From an uncultured Bacteroidales bacterium (GTDB taxonomy: Bacteria > Bacteroidota > Bacteroidia > Bacteroidales > Paludibacteraceae), in the NCBI GenBank assembly GCA_902799555.1, contig CADCBB010000036.1:1-35120 (forward strand): DNA of 35,120 nucleotides. Reading direction: 5' to 3'. Below are positions 453 to 24,143 of the stretch, piece by piece. A model generated the notes under the pieces. The model had not been told where the DNA came from and ran no database searches. It saw only the letters and a list, made by a program, of their open reading frames with translations. The position numbers and the translations under genes were made by a program. How positions within the stretch are numbered: position 1 is the first letter of the stretch; each line of letters opens with the position of its first letter.

Positions 453-487
453 CGCCGTAGACGACGCAATGAGAGTTTTGAAAATAA

Positions 488-657
488 ATGGATAACTTTG
501 TTGCCATAGATTTTGAGACGGCAAACTTCGCGCAATCAAGCAGGGACATCATAACTTGGATATCATCGCCGGCTATTGCGGCTACGAAATGACGAACCAC
601 CACCATGCTCTCGCCGATGCCGAGGCATGCGCAATCATTGCAAAGCAGATTTTATGA
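488..657 (+). pseudogene. DEDDh 3'-5' exonuclease (DnaQ-like) remnant with internal deletion
   Basis: The N-terminal part starts at ATG 488 and reads MDNFVAIDFETANFAQSSR, the classic start of small Bacteroidota DnaQ-like exonucleases with the catalytic D-F-E motif (Exo I). From about 550 a different frame encodes a C-terminal end with NHHHALADAEACAIIAKQI and a stop at 655-657. This is the Exo III region with its conserved His and Asp. The middle of the protein, roughly 120 residues by comparison with the usual family length near 180, is gone and the two ends are out of frame. The gene therefore cannot make an active enzyme. The promoter upstream looks intact. The stop codon overlaps the next start as ATGA, so translational coupling to the 37-residue gene may have been the original arrangement. 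Confidence 0.75.
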
Positions 658-767
658 CTTACGACGAGTACATAGCGCAACAGCAGCTAGCGATGGACGA
701 GGAGCAGCAGGAGGATAGTTGCTTCCTGGAGTATCAGCCCGAAGGGCAGTTTGTTCGCGGACATTAA
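654..767 (+). CDS. 37-residue acidic protein, copy 1 of a repeated family
   Basis: The ATG at 654 overlaps the stop of the exonuclease remnant (ATGA). The product begins MTYDEYIAQQQ, has AMDEEQ and DSCF in the middle and ends QFVRGH. A second gene at 14251-14364 encodes a protein of exactly the same length, identical at 29 of 37 positions, also started by an ATGA overlap with the gene before it. A third trace of the same tail sits at 8334-8350. Conservation of length, start, both ends and a single Cys suggests a real protein under selection. I do not recognise the family. It is acidic, Gln-rich and soluble, and its function is unknown. Coupling to a nuclease here and to a HARE-HTH-like gene at the second copy hints at a nucleic-acid context, but this is inference. 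Confidence 0.6.
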   Translation: MTYDEYIAQQQLAMDEEQQEDSCFLEYQPEGQFVRGH

Positions 768-817
768 ACCTGATAACATCGCCCAAAGCAGAAAAAAAAT
801 TAATTAAAATAGTATCT

Positions 818-7877: not shown

Positions 7878-7909
7878 TTTGGTTACTTTCGGAAATTTTT
7901 GTACCTTTG
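7878..7909 (+). promoter_or_regulatory. Promoter for the HxlR regulator
   Basis: TTTG at 7878-7881 and TACCTTTG at 7902-7909, 20 bases apart, a perfect Bacteroidota promoter. The repeated word TTTCCGAAAAA / TTTCGGAAATTTTT around it could form an autoregulatory site, which is inference only. Confidence 0.7.
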
Positions 7910-7927
7910 CAACCGATTTCAATACAC

Positions 7928-8284
7928 ATGCATATGCGAAAAATAAATAAGGAGGTAGATCCTCAATACTTAAATTGTCCGATTCGGAACGTGATTGACA
8001 AGTTCGGCGACAAGTGGTCGCTCTTGGTGTTGTACCAGCTGCACGACAAAGGCACGCTGCGTTTTAATGAATTACACCGTGAGATGGCGGATTGTTCCCA
8101 GAAGATGCTCTCGCAGACGCTCAAACGGCTTGAACAAATAGGGCTTATCAGCCGGCAGGTTTATCCCGAAGTGCCGCCAAGAGTTGAGTACAGCCTCACC
8201 GCCCGCGGTCAGTCCCTCATGCCCCATGTCTCCGCTCTCATCGGCTGGGCACTTGAACATTTCGAAGAGATGAACAAGGAATAA
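7928..8284 (+). CDS. HxlR-family winged-helix transcriptional regulator
   Basis: 118 residues from ATG 7928; ATG 7934 is also possible. The HxlR core is complete: NCPIRNVIDKFGDKWSLLVL with the conserved Cys-Pro, the recognition region LHREMADCSQKMLSQTLKRL, and the wing EVPPRVEYSLTARGQSL. These dimeric regulators respond to thiol, aldehyde or quinone stress through the N-terminal Cys, and usually control an adjacent oxidoreductase or quinone-detoxifying gene. Here the gene that should follow is missing: directly after the stop come a fragment of an ABM monooxygenase tail and then a broken YbaK gene. The lost ABM gene was plausibly its target, since an intact ABM gene with the same tail exists at 13773. 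Confidence 0.88.
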   Translation: MHMRKINKEVDPQYLNCPIRNVIDKFGDKWSLLVLYQLHDKGTLRFNELHREMADCSQKMLSQTLKRLEQIGLISRQVYPEVPPRVEYSLTARGQSLMPHVSALIGWALEHFEEMNKE

Positions 8285-8286
8285 TT

Positions 8287-8320
8287 GAGATAGAGGCTCG
8301 CGGACAGATGAAGTTGGAAC
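8287..8320 (+). repeat. ABM gene-tail repeat, copy A (isolated)
   Basis: These 34 bases match the coding 3' end of the ABM monooxygenase gene at 14004-14037, with two mismatches. Similarity continues a further ten or so bases. They begin three bases after the HxlR stop and are not part of any complete gene here. The third copy, at 17014-17047, is identical to the one in the ABM gene. Confidence 0.85.
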
Positions 8321-8333
8321 GATTTGAATTTTC

Positions 8334-8350
8334 TGTGAGAGGACATTGAT
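8334..8350 (+). repeat. Tail of the 37-residue gene, fragment
   Basis: TGTGAGAGGACATTGAT equals the end of the second 37-residue gene (coding VRGH and stop) and runs directly into a YbaK start, as at 14349-14368. The rest of the small gene is absent: the ABM tail is joined almost directly to these last codons. Confidence 0.8.
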
Positions 8351-8759
8351 ATGGCACAGAAGATACAGAAAACGAATGTGTGTCGATTGCTCGATGCGGC
8401 AGGGATCGCATATGAGTTGATTGAGTACGAGGACCATCGTACTGGAGGGCGACAAGACCAAGCATTTTGTTTGTGTCGTGCCCGGAGCATGTGAGGTGGA
8501 CTTGAAAAAAGCGGCGCGTGCCAGCGGCAATAAGTCCTGCAAACCGATTCCGCAGAAGGAACTGCTACCGCTCACCGGTTATGTTCGTGGCGGTTGCTGT
8601 CCGATAGGGATGAAGAAACCATTCCCGTCGTACATTGACGAGACATGTCTGCTGCATGAGAAGATATATGTCTCTGCGGGTCAGCGTGGGATGCAACTCC
8701 GCCTCACGCCACAAGACTTGATAAACTATGTACCATTAGAAGTAAGTGATTTGATATAA
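8351..8759 (+). pseudogene. ybaK: YbaK/EbsC-type aminoacyl-tRNA deacylase, broken copy 1
   Basis: The 5' end (ATG 8351) encodes MAQKIQKTNVCRLLDAAGIA and then EYE. From about 8432 the rest of the protein continues in another frame (TIVLEGDKTKHFVCVVPGA, then to LINYVPLEVSDLI, stop 8757-8759). Compared with copy 2 about 70 bases are missing between GAGG and ACCATCGTACTGG. The junction removes the conserved region before the active site and turns the family's conserved Lys (KTIVLEG in copy 2) into Arg. Intact YbaK proteins hydrolyse Cys-tRNA(Pro) or similar mischarged tRNAs. This copy should be inactive, although a shorter in-frame ORF from TTG 8421 could still be translated. The two copies are nearly identical in sequence, indicating recent duplication. 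Confidence 0.85.
8736..8757 (+). repeat. YbaK gene-tail repeat, copy 1
   Basis: The last 22 coding bases of YbaK copy 1. They match 14809-14830 (YbaK copy 2) at 20 of 22 positions. Copy 2's version recurs at 15770-15791 after an unrelated transporter gene. Confidence 0.7.
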
Positions 8760-8800: not shown

Positions 8801-11644
8801 ATGGAAGCACCTATTAGTATCTTGGATTTGTTGAAAGACAATGAGCGTCTTCAGAAGGAGAACGCTCGGCTCGCGAAGGAGAATGAATGTTTGCAGCAGG
8901 AACTTGCGCAATACCGTCAGTCTCAGTCTTCTATATCAATCTCACAACCATCTGCTCCTATAGAGCCGAACAAATCCTCTCCGATGTTCACACTTTCATC
9001 AGAAGAGAAAGTAGCATTGTTCCGTAGTATCTTTCGCGGGCGTGAAGATGTCTTCGCTCGCCGATGGCATAGTGCTTCATCTGGTAAAAGCGGTTACCAA
9101 CCTGTATGTGAGAATGAATGGCGTTCTGACTTATGCAACAAGAAACAATATAAGTGCAGCGAGTGTCCCAACCGATGCCTTGCCTCGCTTACAGATCGAG
9201 ACATCTTTAACCATCTCACAGGCAATGACCCCAATGGCCGTGATGTCATTGGCTTATTTCCTGTCCTCGCAGACAATACCTGTTATCTCTTATGCGCTGA
9301 CTTTGACGATAAAAACTCCGAGCATGGTTATCAAGAGGACGTATTGACGTATAAAAACATCTGCAACGACTGGCATATACCTGCTTATATAGAACGCTCA
9401 CGTTCCGGTAACGGTGCGCACGTATGGATATTCTTCTCGGAACCCATCCCCGCTGCTGTTGCTCGACGCTTAGGCTACGCCGTTCTGACAGAGGCCATGA
9501 ACCATAACGGACGTATGTCACTCAAGTCGTACGATCGTTTCTTCCCAAATCAAGACACACTGCCGGAAGGAGGCTTCGGCAATCTGGTTGCCTTGCCGCT
9601 CCAAGGTCAGGCACGCAAGAAAGGCAATAGTACCTTTGTGGATGAAGAGTTTAACGCTTACCCTGATCAATGGCAATTGCTCCAAAATATCGAACGACTG
9701 TCATTAGATAACATCACAACCATCCTTGCAGAACATAACACCTCAGGGTCCTTATTCGGAGAGTTAGCCCAAACAACCGAAGCCAAACCATGGGAGATTC
9801 CGAAACCTATCACTTTGGAGTCCAAAGATCTCCCAACTTCTGTTTCTTTTATTCGCGCAAACGGCATCTATCTGCCGATGAATCAGCTATCAGCAAAACT
9901 GGCGAACCACATCAAGCGCATGGCATCATTTCGTAATCCAGATTTCTATGCCAAACAAGCCATGCGTTTTTCCACACACGACACCCCGCGTATCATCTCG
10001 TGCGCAGAGATAGTAGATGATTACTTACATATGCCACGAGGCTGTGAAGATGCTATCCGTGAGGTTTTCCAATCCAAGAACATCCCAATCTCCATTGAAG
10101 ATAATACCCAACACGGCATCCCTATCAACGCATCTTTCGTCGGCGAACTTCGCCCGGAACAGCAGGAAGCCTTGCTATGCCTCTCTCGCTTTGATAACGG
10201 CACGCTCTCCGCTACTACCGCTTTTGGTAAGACCGTAACCGCTGCCGCACTTATCGCTCGTCGTCAGACGAATACTTTAGTGCTTGTGCATACGAAAGCT
10301 TTGCTCCAACAATGGCAACAAACGCTATGTCGTTTCCTCGATATTGAACTCCCCGCAGAAGAGCCATCGCGTAAACGCGGCAGACGAAAGAAAATCTCCC
10401 CTGTCGGCACGCTTGATTCCACCGGCAATCATCTCAACGGCATCGTTGATGTTGCCTTGCTGCAATCATGCCTTGATGAAGATTCGGTCAAATCCTTCAT
10501 TCATTCCTATGGTATGGTAATTGTGGACGAGTGTCATCATGTTTCTGCTGTGACCTTTGAAAATGTCCTTCGCATCATATCGCCGCATTATGTTTATGGT
10601 CTCACGGCTACGCCCATTCGCAAGGATGGGCATCAACCCATTATCTTCATGCAATGCGGTCCGATCCGTTACCAAGCAAGTAAACAACTACCACAGCAAT
10701 CAGCTATCTCACGTGTCCTCGTGCCCCGTTTCACTGCTTATCGCCATTTTGGGGAAGATCCGATTACGTTCCCACGTCTCACGGATTTTCTCATCGCAGA
10801 TGAAGCACGTAACCAACTGATTGTATCCGATGTTTGTAAAGCCCTTGCGGAAGGCCGAACACCTATTATCCTTACAAGCCGCACAAGCCATGTGGACATC
10901 CTGTCGCAACTCCTATCAGATTGTTGCCAACATGTTATACCGCTCATCGGCTCAACTTCTGCACGCGAGAAACGACTCACGATGGAGCGTCTTCGAGCCG
11001 TTCCAGACAACGAATCGCTCGTCATTGTAGCAACAGGGAAATATGTTGGAGAAGGCTTTGATTTTCCACGCTTGGATACGCTCATGCTGGCTATTCCCAT
11101 CTCATGGAAAGGCATCGTCGAGCAGTACGCAGGTCGCCTTCATCGGGAGTATCTTGGTAAAGAGGAAGTACGCATATATGACTACGTGGACATTCATGTT
11201 CCCTTGTGTGAACTCATGTACCGCCGTCGTATCAAAGGTTATGCAGGCATAGGCTATAAACCTAAATCACAGCCGATTAATAGAGGCTTATTCGCGGAAC
11301 TGGAAGAGCCGGATACGCAATCTACATTCTTCGATGGAAAATCTTTTGTATCTGTATTCAAAAAGGATATATTAAATGCAAAACGCTCTATCGTTATCAC
11401 AATTCCAAATAATCAACCGCAGGTTGCGAGTTCACTCAAGGGAGTTCTAACTGATGTTGCTGCACGCGGTGTAGAGGTTGTAATAAGACCAACGCAGTCT
11501 TGTCGTTGTGCTATCATAGATAAGAAGTTAATCTGGTATGGTTCAATCAATTATTTGGGGCGAAATACACTAAATGATAATGCAATGCGTTTTGAAGATC
11601 CAAATATTGCAAGTGAACTTCTTGACATAGTTTATAATTCGTAA
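8801..11644 (+). CDS. TOTE-type primase-helicase with C-terminal PLD-like domain
   Basis: 947 residues from ATG 8801; the longer TTG 8765 start adds residues unlike the family. Residues about 8-45 form a Leu/Lys/Glu coiled coil. Residues about 65-310 match the archaeo-eukaryotic primase domain of TOTE conflict systems: a four-Cys cluster (CNKKQYKCSECPNRC), catalytic Asp pair in CADFDD (about 165-170), and SGNGAHVW with its His near 208. Residues about 440-830 are a superfamily 2 helicase: TTAFGKT (about 473), DECHH (about 574), TATP (about 601) and QYAGRLHR (about 775). The last 100 residues resemble one PLD-type half-domain (CAIIDKKLIWYGSINYLG), with Cys where the HKD His would be. TOTE proteins are predicted defence effectors acting on invader nucleic acid. 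Its neighbour is a toxin-antitoxin pair. Confidence 0.82.
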   Translation: MEAPISILDLLKDNERLQKENARLAKENECLQQELAQYRQSQSSISISQPSAPIEPNKSSPMFTLSSEEKVALFRSIFRGREDVFARRWHSASSGKSGYQPVCENEWRSDLCNKKQYKCSECPNRCLASLTDRDIFNHLTGNDPNGRDVIGLFPVLADNTCYLLCADFDDKNSEHGYQEDVLTYKNICNDWHIPAYIERSRSGNGAHVWIFFSEPIPAAVARRLGYAVLTEAMNHNGRMSLKSYDRFFPNQDTLPEGGFGNLVALPLQGQARKKGNSTFVDEEFNAYPDQWQLLQNIERLSLDNITTILAEHNTSGSLFGELAQTTEAKPWEIPKPITLESKDLPTSVSFIRANGIYLPMNQLSAKLANHIKRMASFRNPDFYAKQAMRFSTHDTPRIISCAEIVDDYLHMPRGCEDAIREVFQSKNIPISIEDNTQHGIPINASFVGELRPEQQEALLCLSRFDNGTLSATTAFGKTVTAAALIARRQTNTLVLVHTKALLQQWQQTLCRFLDIELPAEEPSRKRGRRKKISPVGTLDSTGNHLNGIVDVALLQSCLDEDSVKSFIHSYGMVIVDECHHVSAVTFENVLRIISPHYVYGLTATPIRKDGHQPIIFMQCGPIRYQASKQLPQQSAISRVLVPRFTAYRHFGEDPITFPRLTDFLIADEARNQLIVSDVCKALAEGRTPIILTSRTSHVDILSQLLSDCCQHVIPLIGSTSAREKRLTMERLRAVPDNESLVIVATGKYVGEGFDFPRLDTLMLAIPISWKGIVEQYAGRLHREYLGKEEVRIYDYVDIHVPLCELMYRRRIKGYAGIGYKPKSQPINRGLFAELEEPDTQSTFFDGKSFVSVFKKDILNAKRSIVITIPNNQPQVASSLKGVLTDVAARGVEVVIRPTQSCRCAIIDKKLIWYGSINYLGRNTLNDNAMRFEDPNIASELLDIVYNS

Positions 11645-11831: not shown

Positions 11832-11863
11832 TTTGCACAATTCAAAAAAATATAGTACTTTTG
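11832..11863 (+). promoter_or_regulatory. Promoter for the AbiEi/AbiEii-type pair
   Basis: TTTGCACAATTC starting at 11832 and TACTTTTG at 11856-11863, 20 bases apart. The -33 extension ACAATTC is the same as that of the promoter at 2547. The leader to ATG 11917 is about 45 bases, enough for autoregulation by the antitoxin. Confidence 0.7.
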
Positions 11864-11916
11864 CATTGTAAATCGTCAAATAGGAACAAAAACTGACGAA
11901 ATACAATAGTAAAAAC

Positions 11917-12594
11917 ATGATTAATAGAACCGACCATATTATTCGTTTTGCAGAGGCTGTGGAGTCGTTCACTGCGGAGCAATATGCCCTAAGTTTAGGG
12001 GGCGATGTGAGTTTGCATTCCATCGTCAACATTCTCAACCGGATGGTTCGGCAAGGGAAAATACAACGACTGCAAAGAGGTGTTTATTCCAAAGCGACCC
12101 AAAATAGTTGGCATGTGGTGTTTGGAGAACAGGAAAAGGCAGTTTATGATCTCATTCATACGCAGTTTCCCTTAATTATACTATGCGCGTACAATGGAGA
12201 GACCTTTGCTCCATTGCAACACCATCTGGCTTTCAATCAAGCGACTTACATAGAAGTGGAACGAGATAGCGTTGAGACCGTTTTCCACTGTTTGCAAGAT
12301 GCAGGATATGAGGTATTTCGCACTCCGAACGAGCAGATGATGTATGATTATGCGGATATAAAGAAAAAGATAGTAATCGTCAAACCGCTGGTAACTCAAG
12401 CTCCGTTGATGAAGCAGAACGGCTATTATGTGCCTATGCTGGAAAAACTCTTGGTGGACATCCGTGCAGATAAGGATTTTTATTATATGCAAGGCATCGA
12501 GACTGCATACATGACGGAAACAGCCCGCGAACTGTATATGCTGAATGAAGAAAAGTTACAACGATATGCCAAACGGAGGAATATAAAGATATGA
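11917..12594 (+). CDS. AbiEi-type antitoxin with N-terminal winged helix
   Basis: 225 residues. The N-terminal 65 residues look like a winged helix-turn-helix (SLHSIVNILNRMVRQGKIQRL, then GVYSK), as in type IV AbiEi antitoxins, which repress their own promoter. The C-terminal part (about 70-225) is the antitoxin domain with PLIILCAYNGETFAPLQHH and ends in MLNEEKLQRYAKRRNIKI. It resembles the DUF6577-like branch of this family found in Bacteroidota. The stop overlaps the start of the toxin gene (ATGA). In this class the antitoxin counteracts the nucleotidyltransferase toxin without forming a stable complex; that is known of the class and not visible here. Confidence 0.8.
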   Translation: MINRTDHIIRFAEAVESFTAEQYALSLGGDVSLHSIVNILNRMVRQGKIQRLQRGVYSKATQNSWHVVFGEQEKAVYDLIHTQFPLIILCAYNGETFAPLQHHLAFNQATYIEVERDSVETVFHCLQDAGYEVFRTPNEQMMYDYADIKKKIVIVKPLVTQAPLMKQNGYYVPMLEKLLVDIRADKDFYYMQGIETAYMTETARELYMLNEEKLQRYAKRRNIKI

Positions 12595-13661
12595 TTGCAG
12601 CAAAATGTTTTGGTCAAGAATGGATAAGCGCAAAGGCAGAGGAACTGCGCTATCCGGATAAAAACGTGATAGAACGCGTGGTTCGTGCGTTCAGTTTGTT
12701 GGATATGTTAGCTCGAAGCGGTTGTCCTTTTGTCTTCAAAGGAGGAACAAGTCTGATGCTATTGCTCAAAGACACAGGCAATCGTCTGTCCACGGATATA
12801 GATATTATCTGCCCGCCTGATACGAACATAGAAACATATCTGCAAGAATACGCAGCGAACGGTTTTGTTCGATACGAATTGGTAGAGCGTAAGCAAGACG
12901 GGACTACAATTCCTAAAGGACATTCCAAGCTGTTCTACCAAGTGGCATTCCCGCGCTCAGGACGCGAGGATATGTATATTCTGCTGGATGTACTATATGA
13001 CGAGCATCAGTATATCGAGACAAAAGAAGTAGAGATCACTTCTCCGCTGATAGAGATTGAGGGCACGCCAGCCAAAGTGGTTATCCCCTCGGAAAAAGAC
13101 ATATTAGGAGACAAACTAACCGCCTTTGCTCCTGATTCAACCGGCATACCATATTATAAGAAAGGCGAAGAGAAATCGTTGGAAGTCATCAAACAACTCC
13201 ACGACGTCGGACGGCTGTTCGAGCACGTGGACGATATGCATATTACAGCAGAGGTTTTTCGGCGAATAGTGCCTATCGAACTGGCATACCGTGGGCTGAC
13301 AATGTCTGTGGATGAAGTGATTGCAGGTATTCGTCAAACGGATATGAACCTTGCTCTCCGTGGCGCGCTGAATGCAGAACAATTTGCATTCCTGCAACGA
13401 GGTATCATGAAAATACGCAGTTTTATGTATTCAGGACGGCAATATCGGATAGACGAAGCCATAATAGATGCAGCACGTAATGCGTATATGCTCACGTTAA
13501 TCGAAAAAGGAATCAATCGAATAGAAAAGTATTCCTTTGACCCGATGTCTGTTGCAGGTTTGTCCATTGAAGGAATGGAAATGAACAAACTGAACAAACT
13601 GAAAAAGAATTTCCCCGAAGCTTTCTGGTATTGGTACAAAACCTATGAGCTATTGCAGTAG
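12591..13661 (+). CDS. AbiEii/AbiGii-type nucleotidyltransferase toxin
   Basis: 356 residues. The DUF1814 nucleotidyltransferase signature is intact: FKGGTSLMLLL at 49-59, Arg65, and STDIDI at 68-72 with the paired catalytic aspartates, then SEKDILGDKLTAF near residue 170, which holds the later conserved Asp/Lys. The enzyme is expected to bind GTP or another NTP and modify a cellular target; some members add nucleotides to tRNA ends. As the second gene of a translation-coupled type IV toxin-antitoxin operon, it probably gives abortive-infection phage defence. Proximity to the TOTE-like helicase supports a small defence island. No frame disruption is seen. Confidence 0.87.
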   Translation: MIAAKCFGQEWISAKAEELRYPDKNVIERVVRAFSLLDMLARSGCPFVFKGGTSLMLLLKDTGNRLSTDIDIICPPDTNIETYLQEYAANGFVRYELVERKQDGTTIPKGHSKLFYQVAFPRSGREDMYILLDVLYDEHQYIETKEVEITSPLIEIEGTPAKVVIPSEKDILGDKLTAFAPDSTGIPYYKKGEEKSLEVIKQLHDVGRLFEHVDDMHITAEVFRRIVPIELAYRGLTMSVDEVIAGIRQTDMNLALRGALNAEQFAFLQRGIMKIRSFMYSGRQYRIDEAIIDAARNAYMLTLIEKGINRIEKYSFDPMSVAGLSIEGMEMNKLNKLKKNFPEAFWYWYKTYELLQ

Positions 13662-13754
13662 ATGTTGCGTTCTGAAGATCAATGGATAACTATCAGATTT
13701 TGGGAGATGTGGAACCACTATGACCGAATAGGACAAAAAAGAAGAAAAAGATAA
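13662..13754 (+). CDS. Possible 30-residue basic peptide after the toxin gene
   Basis: ATG at 13662 directly follows the toxin stop (TAG 13659-13661). The frame gives a 30-residue Trp- and Arg-rich product ending GQKRRKR. It may be a remnant or chance. It has no recognised relatives. The immediate adjacency to the toxin stop is the only support. Confidence 0.2.
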   Translation: MLRSEDQWITIRFWEMWNHYDRIGQKRRKR

Positions 13755-13772
13755 ACTAAATACAATCCTAAT

Positions 13773-14051
13773 ATGATACGCTTAAATTGCTTTTTTCAGG
13801 CCGCAGACGCGGCAAAGTACAAGGACGCTCTGCGTGCTGCAGTAGCTTTGACCGAGAAATCCCGCAATCATGCCGGGTGCATCGCTTATGATGTGTTCCA
13901 GTCAGCGACCCGCTCGGATGTGTTCATGTTCTGCGAGACATGGAAAGATGACGCTTCGCTCAAGGCGCATGCCGAGACACCGGAGTTCAAGAAATACGTA
14001 GCCGAGATAGAGGCTTGCGGACAAATGAAGTTGGAACAATTTGAGTTTTGA
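13773..14051 (+). CDS. ABM-fold quinol/antibiotic-biosynthesis monooxygenase
   Basis: 92 residues, the usual length of a single dimeric ABM (YgiN-like) domain. Landmarks are MIRLNCFFQAADAAKYKDAL, the central HAGCIAYDVFQSATRSDVFMF, and the ETWKDDASLKAHAETPEF helix that carries the family's W and H. Family members oxidise quinols or aromatic polyketides without cofactors. A quinone-stress role would fit an HxlR partner, and its tail does occur right after the HxlR gene at 8287. Its stop overlaps the TTG start of the next gene. The final coding bases, 14004-14037, are the source of the 34-bp repeat found again at 17014. Confidence 0.85.
   Translation: MIRLNCFFQAADAAKYKDALRAAVALTEKSRNHAGCIAYDVFQSATRSDVFMFCETWKDDASLKAHAETPEFKKYVAEIEACGQMKLEQFEF
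14004..14037 (+). repeat. ABM gene-tail repeat, copy B (in its gene)
   Basis: The 34-bp segment lies in the final codons of the ABM gene (residues EIEACGQMKLEQ). It is identical at all positions to 17014-17047 and differs at two from 8287-8320. This is the only copy placed in a complete gene and so is likely ancestral. Confidence 0.88.
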
Positions 14052-14254
14052 AACTGGAGGAAGCGATAACTTATGCCATCATGTCGGATGGTCATGGAAA
14101 GACGACTGACCAGATAGCTGCCGCTATCAACCGCAATGCCTGGCATGTACGTAAGGACGGCAAACCGGTGACCTCCGCGCAGGTCTATGCCTGCATTTGC
14201 CGTTATCCCTCAATCTTCACCAAAGAAGCCGGAAGAATCTGTGTAATGTTATGA
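14048..14254 (+). CDS. Small HARE-HTH-like DNA-binding protein
   Basis: 68 residues from TTG 14048, overlapping the ABM stop. The pattern AITYAIMSDGHGKTTDQIAAAI, then NAWHVRKDGKPVTSAQVYACI and a final strand GRICVML matches the HB1/ASXL/restriction-endonuclease (HARE) winged helix-turn-helix module, which binds DNA and is often fused to nucleases, methylases or RNA polymerase delta. Here it stands as an isolated domain. The TTG start is needed to include the first helix. The next ATG would remove it. It is translationally coupled to the 37-residue gene (ATGA). A role as a small regulator or adaptor is inferred. Confidence 0.6.
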   Translation: MKLEEAITYAIMSDGHGKTTDQIAAAINRNAWHVRKDGKPVTSAQVYACICRYPSIFTKEAGRICVML

Positions 14255-14364
14255 CATACGACGAGTACATAGCACAACAGCAGCAAGCGATGGACGAGGA
14301 GCAGCGGGACGATAGTTGTTTCACGGCGGATGTACCTGAGTGTCAATTTGTGAGAGGACATTGA
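14251..14364 (+). CDS. 37-residue acidic protein, copy 2 of a repeated family
   Basis: ATG 14251 overlaps the stop of the HARE-like gene. It is the same length as copy 1 at 654-767 and identical at 29 of 37 residues. Start (MTYDEYIAQQQ), middle (AMDEEQ, DSCF) and tail (QFVRGH) are conserved, and only the linker after DSCF varies. Two bases separate its stop from the start of the YbaK gene. The order HARE-like, 37-residue protein, YbaK may be the ancestral arrangement, of which 8287-8759 is a deleted copy. I cannot assign a function. The invariant Cys, acidic core and basic C-terminal RGH would suit a partner-binding or metal-binding peptide. Confidence 0.62.
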   Translation: MTYDEYIAQQQQAMDEEQRDDSCFTADVPECQFVRGH

Positions 14365-14365
14365 T

Positions 14366-14832
14366 ATGGCACAGAAGATACAGAAAACGAATGTGTGTCG
14401 ATTGCTCGATGCGGCAGGGATCGCATATGAGTTGATTGAGTACGAGGTCTGAGTGCTACGCACGTAGCGGAACAGTTAGGTGAGGATGTGGATGCCGTCT
14501 TCAAGACTATTGTGTTGGAGGGTGACAAGGTCAAGCATTTTGTATGTGTAGTGCCCGGAGCATGTGAGGTGGACTTGAAGAAAGCGGCGCGTGCCAGCGG
14601 TAACAAGTCCTGTAAGCCGATTCCGCAGAAAGAACTGCTGCCGCTCACCGGTTATATCCGTGGCGGTTGTTGCCCGATAGGGATGAAAAGACCATTCCCG
14701 TCGTACATTGACGAGACTTGTCTACTGCATGAGAAGATTTACGTCTCTGCCGGACAGCGCGGCATGCAACTCCGCCTCACTCCGCAGGACTTGATTAACT
14801 ATGTACCATTAGAAATAAGCGATTTGATATAG
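14366..14832 (+). pseudogene. ybaK: YbaK/EbsC-type deacylase, frameshifted copy 2
   Basis: ATG 14366 opens the frame for MAQKIQKTNVCRLLDAAGIA and EYEV, then a TGA follows. The remaining protein runs in another frame from about 14449 (LSATHVAEQLGEDVDAVFK) to the stop at 14832. Comparison with usual family sequence suggests a loss of about 13 bases right after GAGGTC. All later motifs are kept, including the conserved Lys in FKTIVLEGD and GGCCPIGM. Intact relatives clear Cys or Ala from tRNA(Pro). A shortened protein could start at ATG 14488 but would lack the first beta-hairpin. It is broken at the same place as copy 1, although by a different deletion. A programmed frameshift is possible but no slippery site is evident. 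Confidence 0.8.
14809..14830 (+). repeat. YbaK gene-tail repeat, copy 2
   Basis: The last 22 coding bases of YbaK copy 2. The same sequence, with one mismatch, lies at 15770-15791 at the end of the transporter gene. The two repeats bracket the whole transporter gene. Confidence 0.85.
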
Positions 14833-14844
14833 TATGTTTGTCAT

Positions 14845-15780
14845 ATGCAAAGAATATGTAATTTCATAGCCAAATGGATGGGAGTGATGGTGCTGATGGT
14901 GGCAGCATTAAGCCTCATTGTGCCGGCATCGCTTGCGTGGATCGGTACGTGGGTGATCAATCCTATGTTGGGCATCATCATGTTCGGCATGGGACTGACA
15001 CTTTCGCCGCAAGACTTCAAGATTGTGCTGAGTCGTCCGAAAGATATCCTGATCGGTTGCCTCACGCAGTTCACCGTCATGCCGCTGCTGGCATGGGGAC
15101 TGACAAAGGCATTCTCGCTTCCGCAAGAACTGGCGATAGGTGTTATTCTGGTAGGCTGTTGCCCGGGCGGAACGGCATCGAACGTGATTACCTATCTGGC
15201 GAAAGGCGACCTTGCGCTATCTGTTGGCATGACTGCCGCATCCACCGTGCTTGCGCCGCTACTGACACCTCTGCTCGTCTGGTTATTGGCCGGCACAATG
15301 GTCAACGTGCATACAACGGGTATGCTGCTGAGCATCGTGTATATCGTTATTCTACCCATCGTCTGCGGGCTGCTCTGTCAACGGTTTATTCCGAAGATTA
15401 CGCAGCGCGTTACTCCTTACCTGCCTGCGTTCTCTTCTATCGCGGTAGCACTGACGGTAGGTATCGTTGTAGCGCATAATGCCGACCGGCTGATGACCGC
15501 AGGGGTGCTCGTAGTGCTCGTAGTGATGCTGCACAACATGCTCGGGCTTGGCGTAGGCTATTTGGTAGGTCGGTTGTTGCGTCTGCAACGTGCCAAGAGC
15601 GTGGCACTCAGTATAGAAGTCGGCATGCAGAACTCCGGTTTGGCAACCTCGCTGGCTGTGATGCATTTTGCAGCATTCCCGTTAGCAACGATCCCCGGTG
15701 CAGTATTCAGCGTATGGCATAACATCAGCGGCGCAATCATTGCACGCATCTATTCACGAAACAAAAAAGTTAGAAATTAG
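14845..15780 (+). CDS. Bile-acid:sodium symporter family (BASS/SBF) transporter
   Basis: 311 residues with about ten membrane helices. Two family hallmarks are present: GCCPGGTASNVITYLAKGD in the first repeat and EVGMQNSGLA in the second, the broken helices that form the sodium and substrate site. BASS proteins import organic anions with Na+; substrates range from bile acids to pantoate and pyruvate, so the name does not prove bile-acid uptake. The last codons and stop (TTAGAAATTAG) belong to the 22-bp YbaK-tail repeat, and the first copy of that repeat lies 14 bases before the ATG. The gene therefore sits as a precise unit between direct repeats, as if inserted into the end of YbaK. Confidence 0.88.
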   Translation: MQRICNFIAKWMGVMVLMVAALSLIVPASLAWIGTWVINPMLGIIMFGMGLTLSPQDFKIVLSRPKDILIGCLTQFTVMPLLAWGLTKAFSLPQELAIGVILVGCCPGGTASNVITYLAKGDLALSVGMTAASTVLAPLLTPLLVWLLAGTMVNVHTTGMLLSIVYIVILPIVCGLLCQRFIPKITQRVTPYLPAFSSIAVALTVGIVVAHNADRLMTAGVLVVLVVMLHNMLGLGVGYLVGRLLRLQRAKSVALSIEVGMQNSGLATSLAVMHFAAFPLATIPGAVFSVWHNISGAIIARIYSRNKKVRN

Positions 15781-15791
15781 CGATTTGATAT
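15770..15791 (+). repeat. YbaK gene-tail repeat, copy 3 (after the transporter)
   Basis: 22 bases matching 14809-14830 at 21 positions. Here they supply the transporter's last codon and stop and the first bases of the next gene, instead of YbaK codons. The chance of such a match at this place is negligible, so it reflects a recombination or insertion event. Confidence 0.85.
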
Positions 15792-16293
15792 GAAAAAGAC
15801 TATTCAAAACATAGCCGGCTATGTGCTTGGCGGAGTGATGTTCGTTGTGCTCTTGCCGACAATTATGTGGCTGGCATCAGGAATGCCGGCATTGGAACAT
15901 ATCGGCGCATTGCGTGCATCCTTGACTGGACTGTTGATGCTTGGCGGACTAACGCTCAGCGTGTGGACTATTGTCTATATGAAGCGTCGTGGAAAAGGTA
16001 ATCCGATGGATGCTTTCGGACATGAAGTAGCTCCGCGCACGCAACATCTGATGACAGATGGACCTTATCGTCTCAACCGCAATCCGATGTTGACAGGGAC
16101 ACTTGTCTATCTCGCATCGTTTATCGTCTGGCTATGGACATGGCAGGCAGTATTGGTGTGGGTTATTTTTCTTGCGATCATGTTCGTGCAAGTACTGACT
16201 GAGGAGAAACGTCTCCGTCAGGATTTTGGCGAAGAATATGAGTCTTATTGCCGTCGCACAGGGCGGTTTTTACCATGGAGATGTAAAAAATGA
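15790..16293 (+). CDS. Isoprenylcysteine carboxyl methyltransferase-like membrane enzyme
   Basis: 167 residues with four membrane segments. The C-terminal catalytic signature of the ICMT/PEMT family is clear: DGPYRLNRNPMLTG, then EEKRLRQDFGEEYESYCRRTGRFLPW, which binds S-adenosylmethionine at the membrane. Bacterial members methylate lipids or small isoprenoid-like substrates, or have unknown roles. Natural substrates cannot be deduced. The ATG lies at the end of the repeat at 15770-15791, so its start context may derive from the insertion. Its stop overlaps the start of the following hydrolase gene (ATGA), which marks the two as one unit. Confidence 0.82.
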   Translation: MKKTIQNIAGYVLGGVMFVVLLPTIMWLASGMPALEHIGALRASLTGLLMLGGLTLSVWTIVYMKRRGKGNPMDAFGHEVAPRTQHLMTDGPYRLNRNPMLTGTLVYLASFIVWLWTWQAVLVWVIFLAIMFVQVLTEEKRLRQDFGEEYESYCRRTGRFLPWRCKK

Positions 16294-16509
16294 ACTTCCA
16301 ACTCTTTGGCAACGATAAAGCCCCGACATTACTGCTCATTCCCGGTTTGGGCGTGTCATACGAGATATTCCTTCCGCTCATTCGTTTGGTGGAAGAGCGG
16401 TTTCGTATCATAGCCGTGGAGGTGGACGGTTTTACGCTTGGCAAGCACACACGCTTCACCTCTGTGGACGACCAAGCTTCGCAAATCATTGCCTATGTGC
16501 AAGCGCATT

Positions 16510-16547
16510 GCGACGGACATTTGGATTGGCGACGGACATTTGGATTG
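16510..16547 (+). repeat. Perfect 19-bp tandem duplication
   Basis: 16510-16528 and 16529-16547 are identical (GCGACGGACATTTGGATTG). Since 19 is not a multiple of three, the second copy puts the hydrolase gene out of frame. It is typical of replication slippage and reversible in principle. Confidence 0.95.
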
Positions 16548-17013
16548 TGCCTATGGTCTGTCGCTTGGCGGTAAAATCCTTTCGCGTATCTTGGAGCGAA
16601 ATGTACTGACCATTGACCATGCCATCCTTGACGCGGCTCCTTTACTGCCCTTGCCCAATTGGCTTGTCAATCCTTTGCGACACTACCAGGCAATCAACGT
16701 CTGGACCTGCTACCACTGGACGGGATTTTGGAAAGCCGTCTTCCGCAGCCACTATTTCGATGTGCTCCTCGATGAGTGCAAGAAGACTTGGCCGTGGGGT
16801 GGCAGACCGGCAGTCTTAGATGGCTACAAGTCCGTTTATACCAACAAGTTGGAATCCATCTCCGGCAATGACATCCATTTCTGGTATGGCACGAAAGAAG
16901 CGTTTGTCGCCCTGCTATCTATATACCCGCAGGCACATGTCGAGATTTTCGAAGGCATGAACCATGGTCAGCTCCTTGTCGATCATCCGGAAGAGATAGT
17001 CCAACGAATCATT

Positions 17014-17047
17014 GAGATAGAGGCTTGCGGACAAATGAAGTTGGAAC
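17014..17047 (+). repeat. ABM gene-tail repeat, copy C (fused to the hydrolase)
   Basis: 34 bases identical to the end of the ABM gene at 14004-14037, here joined in frame to the 3' end of the alpha/beta hydrolase. Copies A and C share the flanking bases ATT before the repeat, where the ABM gene has GCC. After the repeat the sequence differs from both other copies. Confidence 0.9.
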
Positions 17048-17078
17048 GGAGCGTAGGTGACATATGGAGAAAAAGCAG

Positions 17079-17086
17079 TAATTTTG
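17079..17086 (+). promoter_or_regulatory. -7 element for the hydrolase lipoprotein gene
   Basis: TAATTTTG at 17079-17086 fits the -7 consensus and lies 28 bases before ATG 17114. No good -33 TTTG is found at the usual distance, so promoter strength is unclear. Confidence 0.45.
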
Positions 17087-17113
17087 CAACGAAATTCAGA
17101 TAAGAAAGAAAAT

Positions 17114-20341: not shown

Positions 20342-20381
20342 CGCCGAATTATTGTACTAAAGAGATTACACAAACAAAAAT

Positions 20382-21071
20382 ATGAAACGCTTTAAAAGAA
20401 ATGAACTGTACAGCGAGATTAGAGATCCGCAGCCTTCTTATTTCCTTCTACAAGGAGATTTCCGGACATATGTGCGATATTATCTTACTGATACTATCTC
20501 AATCCCATGGTACGCTTACCTTATATTTGCCGCAATGATCTTGGGAGTAATAATGGTCGGCGAATGGGTGTTAGCCCTCATCATATTGGGTGTCTGTATA
20601 CTTATTATCTTGGGCTTGGCGCTTTTTACCGCATCTTCATTCCAGAAAATAGCAGATAAGGGAACTTACATCGGCTTTGATGAAAATGGTGTGGGGTATT
20701 GGGTGCCGGTACAGGATGCCGAAGAAGATGAGGAAGACAAAGAAGACGATGATGAGGGAAAGATTCATGTAAATCTGGCAGTCTCTGCACCTTGGTATGA
20801 ATTGGATGAAATCAAGGTGTTTGATTCCTTTTTAATGTTTAAGTTCGTTTCTACAAGTGAATTAGGACTTGTCTTTGTCCCCATGGAATCAATTGAGAAT
20901 GCGGGAGTAAATGTGGACGAGGCATTAGAGAATATTCTGGCCTATTGGAAGCAACATGCCCAAGACAAGCCTGTAGGTCAAAAAGACCGCAGACTCATTT
21001 GGGTTATCATTGTTATCGCTATTCTGGCTCTAAGATTCATTCTCAAATATCTTAAATATAGTAATGTATAA
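20382..21071 (+). CDS. Membrane protein with YcxB-like C-terminal domain
   Basis: 229 residues. Two close hydrophobic helices near residues 45-90 form a hairpin, and a C-terminal helix lies near 208-226. Between them is a highly acidic loop (DAEEDEEDKEDDDEG) followed by WYELDEIKVFDSFLMFKF and LVFVPMESIENAG, which resembles the YcxB-like (PH-like) domain found in Firmicutes and Bacteroidota membrane proteins. The function is unknown. It is the first gene after a strong promoter. The next gene starts about 45 bases later and is likely in the same operon. The acidic run may bind cations or be disordered. Confidence 0.6.
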   Translation: MKRFKRNELYSEIRDPQPSYFLLQGDFRTYVRYYLTDTISIPWYAYLIFAAMILGVIMVGEWVLALIILGVCILIILGLALFTASSFQKIADKGTYIGFDENGVGYWVPVQDAEEDEEDKEDDDEGKIHVNLAVSAPWYELDEIKVFDSFLMFKFVSTSELGLVFVPMESIENAGVNVDEALENILAYWKQHAQDKPVGQKDRRLIWVIIVIAILALRFILKYLKYSNV

Positions 21072-21115
21072 TATGCGCGTAGCGAATGGATTTCGCGTAT
21101 GAAGTAATTATGATT

Positions 21116-21796
21116 ATGAAAAAGACTCTATTATTACTGATTTGTTGTGTGCACATCGTCACGACGGCTTTCGCAAAAGATTTCCTTCTCCCTGATTATG
21201 AAGGCATTCAAGCAATGGGGCAATCCAATTACAATTTGCTTTTAAATCGTTTTCAAGCACAAGACACGACTTTGTCCATCCAAGATTTTCAGGCTATTTA
21301 TTATGGCTCGGCATTTTATGGGGCTCCTTCATCAGGAATGAGCATGAAACGGCTTAATGCTATTTATGAAGCAGATGGTAATGAGGGCGTCATCATGTAC
21401 GTGGATTCGTTATTATCGGAATCGCCTTTGAATCTAGGCGCACTACGAATGCGTTTTATTGCAGCATACAATGCAAATGATAGTATCACAACAAGCAAAT
21501 ATTTATGGCAGTATGATCGGCTAATGGATGCTGTTTATGCAACAGGTGATGCTTTAACAGAAGAGACTGCACTACATGTAGTTTGTGTTAATGACGAATA
21601 CACAATTATGAATTATGTTATGCAGGTGGAGTTTGAACAGCAAACTCTGACTCCTTCTATGTGCGACAAAATGGATATCATCACAAAGAAAGGAACAAAA
21701 ATGTCTGTTTACTTTGATGTTCAACTCGTTCTTGCGCTAGAAAACAGAATGTTCTCTACGAGCAAAAAGCCCTTCCGATTCAAATACAAAAGATAA
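21116..21796 (+). CDS. Exported DUF4919-like protein
   Basis: 226 residues from ATG 21116. A signal peptide (MKKTLLLLICC, cleavage near AFAKD) exports it. The body is helical, with the aromatic pattern FQAIYYGSAFYGAPSS and YEADGNEGVIMYVDSLL, similar to DUF4919 proteins common in Bacteroides and Prevotella, which are TPR-like. A start at 21086 would put a hydrophilic leader before the signal peptide, so 21116 is preferred. The A+T content is higher than in neighbouring genes. The role is unknown. Confidence 0.65.
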   Translation: MKKTLLLLICCVHIVTTAFAKDFLLPDYEGIQAMGQSNYNLLLNRFQAQDTTLSIQDFQAIYYGSAFYGAPSSGMSMKRLNAIYEADGNEGVIMYVDSLLSESPLNLGALRMRFIAAYNANDSITTSKYLWQYDRLMDAVYATGDALTEETALHVVCVNDEYTIMNYVMQVEFEQQTLTPSMCDKMDIITKKGTKMSVYFDVQLVLALENRMFSTSKKPFRFKYKR

Positions 21797-21799
21797 TAA

Positions 21800-22027
21800 A
21801 TGATAATAGATACAGCAAATATGTGCTCTCATTTGCAGCGGAAGTTATTTGCCCCGGATGGTGAATACCGCGCTATCCGTGAGCAGATAGAGAACGACCC
21901 GACGCTGAGGGCTGTAGTCCGTTCACGGCAGTTACATATCTATCGCGATGGAAAGAAAATTCTTGTCCTTGCAGGCAAGAGTACCCCGAAGATCATTCGG
22001 GAAGATAAATTGGCAGAATTATTATGA
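21800..22027 (+). CDS. 75-residue conserved-looking hypothetical protein
   Basis: Short alpha/beta protein with LFAPDGEYRAIREQIENDPTL, a basic stretch VVRSRQLHIYRDGKKILVL and a charged C-terminus ending EDKLAELL. It starts three bases after the DUF4919 stop, and its own stop overlaps the macro-like gene (ATGA), so it is a genuine member of the operon. I do not recognise its family. No signal peptide or membrane segment is present. Coupling to the macro-like protein suggests a nucleotide or ADP-ribose context, but that is only inferred. Confidence 0.6.
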   Translation: MIIDTANMCSHLQRKLFAPDGEYRAIREQIENDPTLRAVVRSRQLHIYRDGKKILVLAGKSTPKIIREDKLAELL

Positions 22028-22413
22028 CACTACGAGTAACACCGGAGTATATCACTTCTTTGAAGCCGAACGAGATTTTTGTCTTCGGCAGTAACCTTGC
22101 GGGCATGCATGGTGGCGGAGCAGCGCATATAGCGCACAAACTCTTTGGAGCAGAGTGGGGTGTGGGAGTCGGTCCGACAGGGCAATGTTACGCCATTCCT
22201 ACCATGCAAGGCGGCGTAGAGACTATCCGTCCGTATGTGGATGAATTTTACGCCAAACAACATCTGGAACTGCTCTTCCGTGTGACGCGTATCGGTTGTG
22301 GCATTGCGGGCTTTACGAACGAAGAAATCGCACCGCTTTTCAAAGCCGCCGTAGCCATGGAGAACGTGTCGCTACCCAACGGCTGGCGAGAGATTATTGG
22401 ACAGCAGGAATGA
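22024..22413 (+). CDS. Macro-domain-like protein (A1S_2505 type)
   Basis: 129 residues. The N-terminal EIFVFGSNLAGMHGGGAAHIA is a glycine-rich macro-type phosphate loop, and PTGQCYAIPTMQGG and RVTRIGCGIAGFTNEEIAPLF match the remaining conserved blocks of this small macro-like family (called A1S_2505 in some databases). Macro folds bind ADP-ribose or related nucleotides and can remove ADP-ribose from proteins, DNA or RNA. Catalysis by this subfamily is not established. Its stop overlaps the next start, indicating coupling with the MmcQ/YjbR-like gene. Confidence 0.78.
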   Translation: MTLRVTPEYITSLKPNEIFVFGSNLAGMHGGGAAHIAHKLFGAEWGVGVGPTGQCYAIPTMQGGVETIRPYVDEFYAKQHLELLFRVTRIGCGIAGFTNEEIAPLFKAAVAMENVSLPNGWREIIGQQE

Positions 22414-22760
22414 TGAACGTAGAAGAGATTCGGGATTTCTGCCTTTCTTTAGGTTCAGATGTAGAAGAGAAACTGCCCTTTACCAAGTTCAAGAACGGCG
22501 AAGGAGTATTGGTCTTCTATGTCTGCGGACACATGTTTTGTTTCTTTGATCTCAATGATTTTCAGGTTATTTCGCTCAAGTGCCAGCCTGAACGGATTGA
22601 TGAGTTGAAGGCGCAATACGACAGCATCGGCAATCCCTATAACGAGTCGCCCAAACACTGGATCGGTCTTGACCCGCATTCTTCGCCGGACGACTTGACA
22701 CGCGACCTCATCCGCAATTCATACGAGATTGTCAAAGCTAAATACACCAAGAAAAGATGA
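22410..22760 (+). CDS. MmcQ/YjbR-family DNA-binding-like protein
   Basis: 116 residues from ATG 22410 (22413 is one codon later and equally good). The hallmark order of the MmcQ/YjbR (CyaY-like fold) family is present: MNVEEIRDFCLSL, the EEKLPF element, VFYVCGHMFCFFDL, VISLKCQPE and the C-terminal HWIGLDP. It was named after a mitomycin-cluster protein, and its biochemical role is unclear even though a double-wing DNA-binding fold has been proposed. Its stop overlaps the acetyltransferase start. Confidence 0.85.
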   Translation: MMNVEEIRDFCLSLGSDVEEKLPFTKFKNGEGVLVFYVCGHMFCFFDLNDFQVISLKCQPERIDELKAQYDSIGNPYNESPKHWIGLDPHSSPDDLTRDLIRNSYEIVKAKYTKKR

Positions 22761-23311
22761 CAGAACGAGAGAAGATGTTGGCAGGCGAAGTGTATGACGC
22801 CTGTGCCCCGGATTTGTTGGAAGACCTCAACCGTGTGAAGGTTCTATGCCAGCAGTATAATAACCTGCTGCCGACAGACTTTGCTGGACGAAACAAGATG
22901 ATTCGTGAGATCTTGGGCCAAGCGGATGAAGACACGTTCATCAACCAGCCTTTCTATTGCGATTACGGCAAGCATATCCGCGTCGGTAAACGGTTCTTCG
23001 CGAACTTCGGTTTTACCGTCTTGGACGAAGCCTATGTGACCATCGGCGACGATTGTTTTTTAGGACCGAGCGTGCATATCTACTGTGCGTGTCATAGTAC
23101 CGATCCGCGTGAACGCAAGACGCGTCAGGAATGGGCGGAACCCGTGACCATCGGTAATGATGTCTGGATCGGCGGCAACGTCACCATTCTGCCCGGCGTC
23201 ACTATCGGCGATAATTGTACGATAGGAGCCGGTTCGGTCGTAACGCACGACATCCCCGCCAACAGCATCGCTGCCGGTAATCCCGCGAAAGTGATTAAAA
23301 CGATCAAATAG
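22757..23311 (+). CDS. Maltose/galactoside O-acetyltransferase-like enzyme
   Basis: 184 residues: an N-terminal Mac helical domain (MTEREKMLAGEVYDA, about 1-55) and a left-handed beta-helix of hexapeptide repeats (VTIGDDC, VTIGNDVWIGGNVTILPGV, VTIGDNCTIGAGSVV). His113 in CACHSTDP is the catalytic base equivalent. It transfers acetyl from acetyl-CoA to a sugar hydroxyl; the sugar cannot be specified. Full length and motif-complete. The start overlaps the previous gene by four bases. It is cytosolic. Confidence 0.9.
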   Translation: MTEREKMLAGEVYDACAPDLLEDLNRVKVLCQQYNNLLPTDFAGRNKMIREILGQADEDTFINQPFYCDYGKHIRVGKRFFANFGFTVLDEAYVTIGDDCFLGPSVHIYCACHSTDPRERKTRQEWAEPVTIGNDVWIGGNVTILPGVTIGDNCTIGAGSVVTHDIPANSIAAGNPAKVIKTIK

Positions 23312-23318
23312 TACCACT

Positions 23319-23846
23319 ATGGATAAATTGGAGGAATTGATACACAACGACTTGCAGCACTATCTGCTGAGCGAGAATGAGATAGACGAGCGTCTGCCGG
23401 AATGCCCGGATGTGGAAGGCAAATGGGAGACGATTGCCAATGCGTATATCCCTGACGGAGTGCGTGAGTTTCAGAATTATCCGCTCGCGTCGCTCGGGTG
23501 GATGATGTATATCGGCATGGCATTGGCGAAGATGTGGGATGACGATTGGCAGTACTATGCTGCAAAGGACGATTTGTATGTCTATCTGCGTGACAAACGC
23601 GGCTACGATGCCATGGACGAGTATATTCGCAGAGACGTGCTCAAACTCAAAGGCAAGGATTTTGCTGCGACTGAAGAGCTCGTTAGCGAGTGTGCCTCAC
23701 GAGTGCATAACACGTTGATGCATCAGGACATCGAACCGGGCACCAAAGAGGCTTTCCTTGCCTACGTCGCTTGCTTGCATCAGTTGTTCCTCTTTGGCGC
23801 AGCTGTACAACTCAAGCGCATGGGCTATCACATGACGAGAATATAA
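23319..23846 (+). CDS. Conserved Bacteroidales hypothetical protein
   Basis: 175 residues, all helical by appearance. The stretch REFQNYPLASLGWMMYIGMALAKMWDDDW is a strongly patterned helix pair that I recall from uncharacterised Bacteroides proteins, and the C-terminus has YVACLHQLFLFGAAVQLKRMGY. There is no signal peptide or clear transmembrane segment. It starts seven bases after the acetyltransferase stop, so it is the last full gene of this operon. No function can be given. Confidence 0.65.
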   Translation: MDKLEELIHNDLQHYLLSENEIDERLPECPDVEGKWETIANAYIPDGVREFQNYPLASLGWMMYIGMALAKMWDDDWQYYAAKDDLYVYLRDKRGYDAMDEYIRRDVLKLKGKDFAATEELVSECASRVHNTLMHQDIEPGTKEAFLAYVACLHQLFLFGAAVQLKRMGYHMTRI

Positions 23847-23862
23847 ATATAGTGATTATACT

Positions 23863-24035
23863 ATGACACGCAAAGAAACAATCATAGCAACGATCTTGCT
23901 AATCGTTGGCGGACATGTGCTGTTGTGCAACGCCTCTGGCCACTGTGGATAGTGCTCATCGTGCTGGCTATCATTACCATCGGTATCCTGACCTACCACG
24001 CACCAGACTGGATCATCTTCGCAGATTTAGGATAA
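23863..24035 (+). pseudogene. Frameshifted small membrane protein
   Basis: ATG 23863 starts MTRKETIIATILLIVGGHVLL, a membrane segment, and stops at 23950-23952. A different frame from about 23934 gives LWPLWIVLIVLAIITIGILT and YHAPDWIIFADLG with stop TAA 24033-24035, a second membrane segment with a typical tail. Joined, they would make a two-helix protein of about 55 residues, of a kind often found at operon ends. A single indel near 23920-23935 (around TGTGCTGTTGTGCAACG) would explain it. Sequencing error cannot be excluded. Confidence 0.5.
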
Positions 24036-24067: not shown

Positions 24068-24072
24068 CTATG

Positions 24073-24143
24073 TTGCTCAACCAGGACTCGAACCCAGACA
24101 GACAGAACCAGAATCTGTAGTGCTACCATTACACCATTGAGCA
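24073..24143 (-). tRNA. trnQ: tRNA-Gln (anticodon CTG)
   Basis: Reading leftward, the acceptor stem TGCTCAA pairs perfectly with TTGAGCA. The D arm contains GTGTAATGGTAGCAC. The anticodon stem ACAGA/TCTGT encloses the loop TTCTGGT, giving anticodon CTG for Gln codon CAG. The T arm contains GGTTCGAGTCC with the conserved TTCGA. The T stem has two G-T wobbles. The discriminator base is A and CCA is not encoded, so it must be added afterwards. Length is 71 bases. Confidence 0.9.

Follow-up and report, generated by a model that had tools for sequence, protein, structure and literature searches.

Repeated gene ends as probable deletion scars in a reshuffling, tRNA-Gln-anchored genomic island of a gut Bacteroidales genus

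A 35,120-nt stretch from an uncultured Bacteroidales bacterium (contig CADCBB010000036.1 of assembly GCA_902799555.1; the window) contains several short repeats of gene 3' ends. These repeats are probably deletion scars in a fast-reshuffling genomic island, anchored at a tRNA-Gln gene, of a gut Bacteroidales genus. The initial annotation had read them as possible marks of a cassette mechanism that restores the tail of an upstream gene behind a newly placed one; the repeats exist but do not mark inserted cassettes, and the mechanism differs from the one first supposed. Observed directly are the scars, the sharing of scars between genomes, intact counterparts for about half of them, the single direction of the gene string, its reordering, the tRNA anchor, and a recombinase at the tRNA in relatives. 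The host genome (2.34 Mb, 82 contigs, 86% complete) is labelled G000 and the window is its contig C36. Other G-numbers denote other genomes, C-numbers contigs, and L-numbers extracted stretches.

Comparison of the window with itself recovered both repeat pairs, 14809/15770 and 14004/17014. The last 22 nt of YbaK copy 2 (14809-14830) recur at 15770-15791 with 95% identity and at the end of YbaK copy 1 (8736-8757, 91%), and the ABM tail (14004-14037, 34 nt) recurs at 17014-17047 with 100% identity. A further ABM tail does follow the HxlR gene as described, at 8287-8332, but as a 46-nt match of 91% identity rather than an unchanged copy. By our own estimate, made without shuffling, a 22-nt match with one mismatch or an exact 34-nt match in 35 kb is far beyond chance. 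The YbaK copies and the hydrolase had been presented as genes; all three are recognisable but disrupted. Both YbaK copies have lost internal sequence, and a tandem duplication of 19 nt (16510-16547) shifts the reading frame of the hydrolase. ARAGORN located a tRNA-Gln gene, previously unmentioned, at which the string of genes terminates. The features concerned are as follows.

7907..8284, + strand: HxlR-type regulator (Pfam HxlR on its relative in L065)
8275..8332, + strand: nested scar, ~12 nt similar to the end of the hydrolase followed by the ABM tail at 8287-8332 (homology)
8334..8759, + strand: mini ORF tail, then YbaK copy 1 without ~70 nt at 8432 (homology)
13773..14051, + strand: ABM gene with an open frame, of the family that supplied the ABM tail (Pfam ABM)
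14048..14364, + strand: c4, 68 aa (14048-14254), and mini ORF, 37 aa (14251-14364) (homology)
14366..14832, + strand: YbaK copy 2, frame broken, ~13 nt shorter than intact relatives near 14447, ending in the 22-nt tail 14809-14830 (Pfam tRNA_edit on the intact relative in L063)
14845..15780, + strand: SBF-family transporter (block found at 96% identity in G114 and G126, with different surroundings)
15770..15791, + strand: YbaK tail scar, leader of PEMT1 (homology)
15790..16293, + strand: PEMT-type methyltransferase, PEMT1 (domain search)
16290..17103, + strand: alpha/beta hydrolase, frameshifted, with the ABM tail in place of its native end from 17014 (Pfam hit to the L063 relative)
17014..17047, + strand: ABM tail scar, directly following CAACGAATCATT in the hydrolase (homology)
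24072..24143, - strand: tRNA-Gln(CTG), island anchor, with the gene string ending at its 3' side (ARAGORN, Rfam tRNA)

The ABM tail was followed across the genus by searching 121 genomes for ABM (27 with a match) and 178 for HxlR and the hydrolase (48 and 71 with a match, respectively). The best 30 loci of each of the latter two were read, one hydrolase locus (L253) ending before the place of interest and leaving 29 readable. Detached from its gene, the last 46-48 nt of ABM occur with the same left edge in G132, G114, G122, G113, and G004 and twice in the window, where one copy is 34 nt. In three of the 29 readable loci (G000, G114, G122) the hydrolase extends as far as CAACGAATCATT and continues from there as ABM tail; the tail is absent from the other 26, the closest of which continue with a short native end. 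Four of the best 30 HxlR loci (G000, G004, G132, G113) show HxlR, then 12-13 nt of hydrolase-like end, then the ABM tail. A YbjQ tail follows the ABM tail in G114, G122, and G132. To judge from these alignments, the ABM scar on the hydrolase is common to the window and two other species, and the HxlR copy looks like a second deletion nested on it. The arrangement fits nested deletions that may have occurred in an older order HxlR-hydrolase-ABM-YbjQ. Two other accounts were discarded. The 12 nt before the ABM tail do not derive from HxlR, matching the native hydrolase end instead, and a single mobile tail was rejected, as all seven detached ABM tails have their left edge in common and can be collapsed to two nested events. 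Among named records, 26 stretches matched a pattern scan for the ABM tail, with titles such as 'Paludibacteraceae bacterium', 'uncultured Bacteroidales bacterium', and similar; several of these titles name ruminant forestomachs and one names pig.

For the YbaK tail, PEMT1 was searched in 178 genomes and matched in 64; the best 30 loci were read, 29 with a readable start (L276 ends too early). The tail stands directly before PEMT1 in seven of these 29 (window, G142, G132, G195, G181, G121, G063). Upstream of it lie the transporter, an ABM head, RNase_T-like ends, or other sequence, and no intact YbaK was found in the 75 nt inspected at the seven loci, nor by wider family painting at G132 (L045) and G063 (L099, identified through its positions). 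As the tail is paired with PEMT1 behind such varied sequence and with no intact YbaK, it is probably older at PEMT1 than the transporter, and seems to have been part of the PEMT1 leader before the transporter came to stand upstream. Beyond PEMT1, in different genomes, it precedes c47, PNPOx, c19, SBF, and an acetyltransferase-like gene. A general rule that tails travel with the downstream gene was not upheld; it applies to the YbaK tail with PEMT1 and the c4 tail with DUF1349, but the ABM tail keeps its upstream partner.

These distributions bear directly on the cassette or insertion system, in which a gene would enter at the 3' end of another with the host tail copied behind it, as at a tRNA att site. 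The window transporter does sit between two YbaK tails, but a comparison of empty sites found both downstream tails in other species without the supposed insert between two tails. Genomes lacking that insert still carry the second tail, either next to the same downstream gene or on the hydrolase. Block ends cluster at stop and start codons, as such a system would have it (553 of 1316 matching-block ends lie within 10 nt of one), a pattern to be expected in part wherever conservation is confined to coding sequence. Heads and middles of genes are also left behind, no common motif appeared among 46 inspected groups of promiscuous 14-mers, and none of 61 genomes scored above the integron-integrase cut-off. 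A cassette system is accordingly judged highly improbable.

The scars extend well beyond the window. A systematic scan of 65 distinct stretches, excluding L043 and L044, found 55 detached tails and 47 detached heads, from 20 families each; with heads nearly as frequent, tail-only retention was rejected. The partners are intact elsewhere for 12 of 23 distinct tail/next-gene pairs, against a shuffle mean of 2.5, and none of 20,000 shuffles reached 12. A looser earlier pass gave 20 of 37 entries with an intact counterpart against 4.8 expected; its 68 stretches held L012 (G013:C108) twice and L043 overlapping L078, and its few false entries include two HxlR hits within the window (28.7 and 30.1 kb). 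Individual cases can be read in detail. On G000:C58 an ABM head is fused to a c4 tail, and the whole ABM-c4 stands in the window; on G000:C65 an ABM piece is fused to a YbjQ piece, and ABM-YbjQ is intact in several relatives. In G114 YbaK is reduced to a 34-nt head and a 64-nt tail. Downstream neighbours vary: many different genes come after the hydrolase among its best 30 loci, and 21 whole ABM copies are followed by five named genes (16 copies) or other neighbours (5 copies).

The suggestion of recombination at gene ends thus held in that gene neighbours do switch there, but not in the sense of a dedicated site. No shared joint motif appeared among the 46 inspected groups of promiscuous 14-mers, taken from 980 that passed a multi-context filter. 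These 14-mers are promoters, tRNA parts, and other repeats, and the recognised island entries among them are the two ends of YbaK. One repeat, TTTCGACTTTCGAC, has 24 occurrences in 15-16 contexts in the stretches of the 14-mer scan.

The island is a string of accessory genes in one direction that ends at tRNA-Gln(CTG), and in G114, G137, G126:C8, and others it likewise ends at tRNA-Gln. This edge places it among tRNA-anchored islands. No integrase or recombinase was seen among the window's open reading frames (ORFs) as far as they were inspected, so the absence of a nearby recombinase reported at first stands for the window. It does not stand for the genome, as contig C65 carries a tyrosine recombinase at tRNA-Gln, as do six other genomes. 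The protein is 97-100% identical in these seven genomes (in two pieces in G153), with tRNA-Gln adjoining in all seven. It lies between string and tRNA on the opposite strand in G000:C65, G027, G162, G003:C4, and G078:C4; the contigs of G006 and G153 end too near the recombinase to show the string. Among 20 further relatives scanned, a tRNA (Gln, Thr, His, Lys, Ser) adjoins 11 and not the other nine. Two copies of tRNA-Gln(CTG) are present in G000 and one in each of the other 11 genomes tested.

A partial copy of the tRNA 3' end (19 nt) lies 186-187 nt from the tRNA in G137 and G126:C8, with none found at the far edge. The tRNA-Gln end, sought with up to 3 mismatches in 31 stretches, occurred only at tRNA-Gln itself and once as a partial copy, with no repeats of it between genes. 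The 186-187-nt spacer between partial end and full tRNA-Gln (L185, G137:C3; L186, G126:C8) contains GC-rich arms, and a comparable sequence lies next to the tRNA in G114 and, as judged by eye, in G017. Also by eye, L190 (G122:C1, ~107.5 kb) has several tandem units with part of the tRNA-Gln 3' end beside tRNA-Gln, possibly remnants of repeated integration.

Direction within the island is nearly invariant. Across 44 island stretches, two of which overlap (L043, L078), 285 of 286 reference-gene hits lie on the majority strand, the exception lying beyond the tRNA. Order is not. In the sister species G126 the flank is collinear from the tRNA to the window end at 86-98% identity, but SBF, block 20363-22038, YjbR, c14, RNase_T, and YbaK stand in a different order, all in one orientation. 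Duplicate copies also occur, with two YbaK in the window and two ABM on G000:C43.

Identity values suggest some exchange between species. Among nine genomes compared, G126 is 94% identical to the window in conserved genes (31632-34209) and seven are 73-78% identical; the ninth has no match. Against G114 and G137 the mini ORF reaches 78%, YbaK, hydrolase, YjbR, and c14 84-92%, and ABM, SBF, and PEMT1 94-97%. Because the last values exceed the identity of conserved genes to the same species, at least some island genes apparently move from species to species. In L056 (G000:C43), L059 (G110:C34), and L072 (G142:C17), strings that carry amylase, RNase_T, and ABM genes show 98-99% identity across species, probably through recent transfer.

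These values also bring in homologous or homology-facilitated recombination between islands, with shared genes and tails providing the arms, much like minimal mobile elements, and scars arising as by-products. SBF is 96% identical to G114, and ABM (94%) and PEMT1 (96-97%) to G137, though conserved genes are 74-77% identical to those species, and one YbaK tail precedes many different genes across genomes. Other island genes, however, are only 78-90% identical to the same species. At the hydrolase/ABM and ABM/c4 joints ~0-1 nt is shared, though three PEMT2 scars overlap by 8-9 nt, and recombination of this kind accounts for changes of order but not for truncated genes. It is a serious candidate with a little less than an even chance of being right.

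Chimeric assembly, in which repeated genes were misjoined, would be favoured by genomes in many contigs and by named records that are mostly metagenome-assembled genomes or uncultured isolates. The two YbaK regions of the window (8334-8432 and 14349-14447) moreover share an exact stretch, their first 99 nt being identical and the rest 89%, which may reflect recent conversion or an assembly join. Yet records from separate projects (RUG281, RGIG1110, SRR12081303) contain the HxlR/ABM-tail joint, and the hydrolase/ABM-tail joint also lies on a 342-kb contig. Misassembly as the source of the repeats is scarcely credible.

On the preferred explanation, that of deletion scars, the island string, which points at the tRNA, would be drawn from a genus-wide gene pool, its genes being gained, re-joined near their ends, and lost. 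Many losses would be deletions within a gene or from one gene into the next, with a few tens of nt of head or tail left over. A remaining tail often lies just before the next start codon, where it could act as the leader of the next gene and travel along. The pair 14809/15770 would then be the YbaK end and an old scar of YbaK that PEMT1 carries with it, the pair 14004/17014 the ABM end and an old ABM scar fused to the hydrolase, and the copy at 8287 a second deletion nested on the ABM scar. Several further elements belong to this model. The recombinase may be the route by which material enters, islands may exchange genes with one another, and duplication with partial loss may generate new order. 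Kept tails may serve as translation leaders, and short scars may persist because the start region of the next gene is spared.

A wider and rather doubtful extension casts the tRNA island as a gene-order engine. Segments would be duplicated in tandem and lost piecewise, changing order without inversions, a process put forward for mitochondrial genomes, and kept ends would be ready leaders allowing any gene to follow any other. Tandem duplication-random loss predicts duplicate copies and remnants between genes. Order change without inversion, duplicate copies, and inter-gene remnants are all found here, and the single direction, the duplicate YbaK and ABM, and the remnants would fit such a process. 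No fresh multi-gene tandem duplicate was noticed, only single-gene duplicates, and no systematic search was made for one. The model papers found concern animal mitochondria (PMC5745709 and others). Their systems share order change without inversion, duplicate copies, and remnants with the present one, in which the duplicates noticed are of single genes rather than whole segments.

Several points weigh against the deletion-scar explanation. Eleven of the 23 tail/next-gene pairs have no intact counterpart in the loci read, including the central YbaK-PEMT1 and ABM-YbaK, and the intact order HxlR-hydrolase-ABM(-YbjQ) was seen in none of them. The window itself, as noted, has no recognised recombinase. 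Scars were detected by homology, and frameshifted or split copies make up some of the heads and tails counted. The stretches share near-identical DNA across genomes, so that scar counts are not independent events, and both scar and strand counts come from chosen island stretches and a chosen gene list with no non-island control. Each species is represented by one genome in contigs, with the order of events pieced together across species.

The remaining features of the string include three further scars.

463..768, + strand: compound scar, NUDIX tail 463-495, RNase_T head 488-541, RNase_T 3' part 544-641, then mini ORF relative (homology; intact NUDIX-RNase_T in G137, L035)
8801..11644, + strand: TOTE-type primase-helicase protein (Pfam AEP-TOTE, ResIII)
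11917..13661, + strand: AbiE-like gene pair (first gene Pfam DUF6577, with AbiEi_4 below cut-off; second by position only)
13669..13756, + strand: YoeB scar, leader 13669-13698 joined to tail 13699-13756 (homology; YoeB directly before ABM intact in G137)
20363..23847, + strand: further string genes, namely block 20363-22038, YjbR, hexapeptide acyltransferase, and c14 (other order in sister species G126)
23863..24035, + strand: DUF6512 scar without the gene body, its head (23863-23904) joined to its 3' part (from 23892) (homology)

The TOTE-type protein and AbiE-like pair occupy 8801-13661 of the window string, and large proteins resembling a Wadjet-type defence system, judged by eye, lie in G137:C3 (166-172 kb) and G126:C8 (22-29 kb).

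Integron cassette arrays are one-directional strings of small genes of mixed function, and the island resembles them in this respect. It differs in having no integron integrase above cut-off and no shared site, in genes often only a few nt apart, and in a string that points toward the recombinase. An integron was rejected on these grounds; none of the 61 genomes exceeded the TIGR02249 cut-off, and weaker matches also arose in all 14 control genomes. No common attC-like site was found behind the genes, which abut or overlap, in the 46 inspected 14-mer groups, a scan of motifs rather than of modelled attC structure. With tRNA-anchored and tycheposon-like islands, as PMC4383910 and PMC10872708 describe them, it shares the tRNA edge, an adjoining tyrosine recombinase in relatives, variable accessory cargo, and, in G137 and G126, a partial tRNA 3' end near the tRNA. 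Unlike those, it has no second att copy found at its far edge, and its scar-rich unidirectional string varies in order between sister species. Additive flexible islands with tRNA-tail repeats (PMC10872708) likewise combine accessory genes close to a tRNA with interspersed short repeats, but here the repeats are protein-gene ends of 20 families rather than a tRNA tail. Minimal mobile elements, according to PMC3082526, are flanked by a conserved gene on either side and are acquired through homologous recombination. Whole genes vary there between strains at a fixed place, and may do so in the present island, but here order also shifts inside the string and joints carry truncated genes; the right flank is conserved with G126, and the left flank was not located.

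The window thus holds a tRNA-anchored island of a known kind, in which the unusually legible gene-end scars and the reshuffled string are the new aspect. A published description of this island was not found in the literature searched, which is not proof of absence. PMC12190745 reports that the breakdown of gene order in prokaryotes results chiefly from gains and losses of genes. Single steps of this loss are rarely visible, and here partly deleted genes shared across species read like strata. The scars would be a direct record of the joining, reordering, and loss of accessory genes in a tRNA island. They also serve as a warning that short gene-end repeats can mimic a cassette mechanism while being relics.

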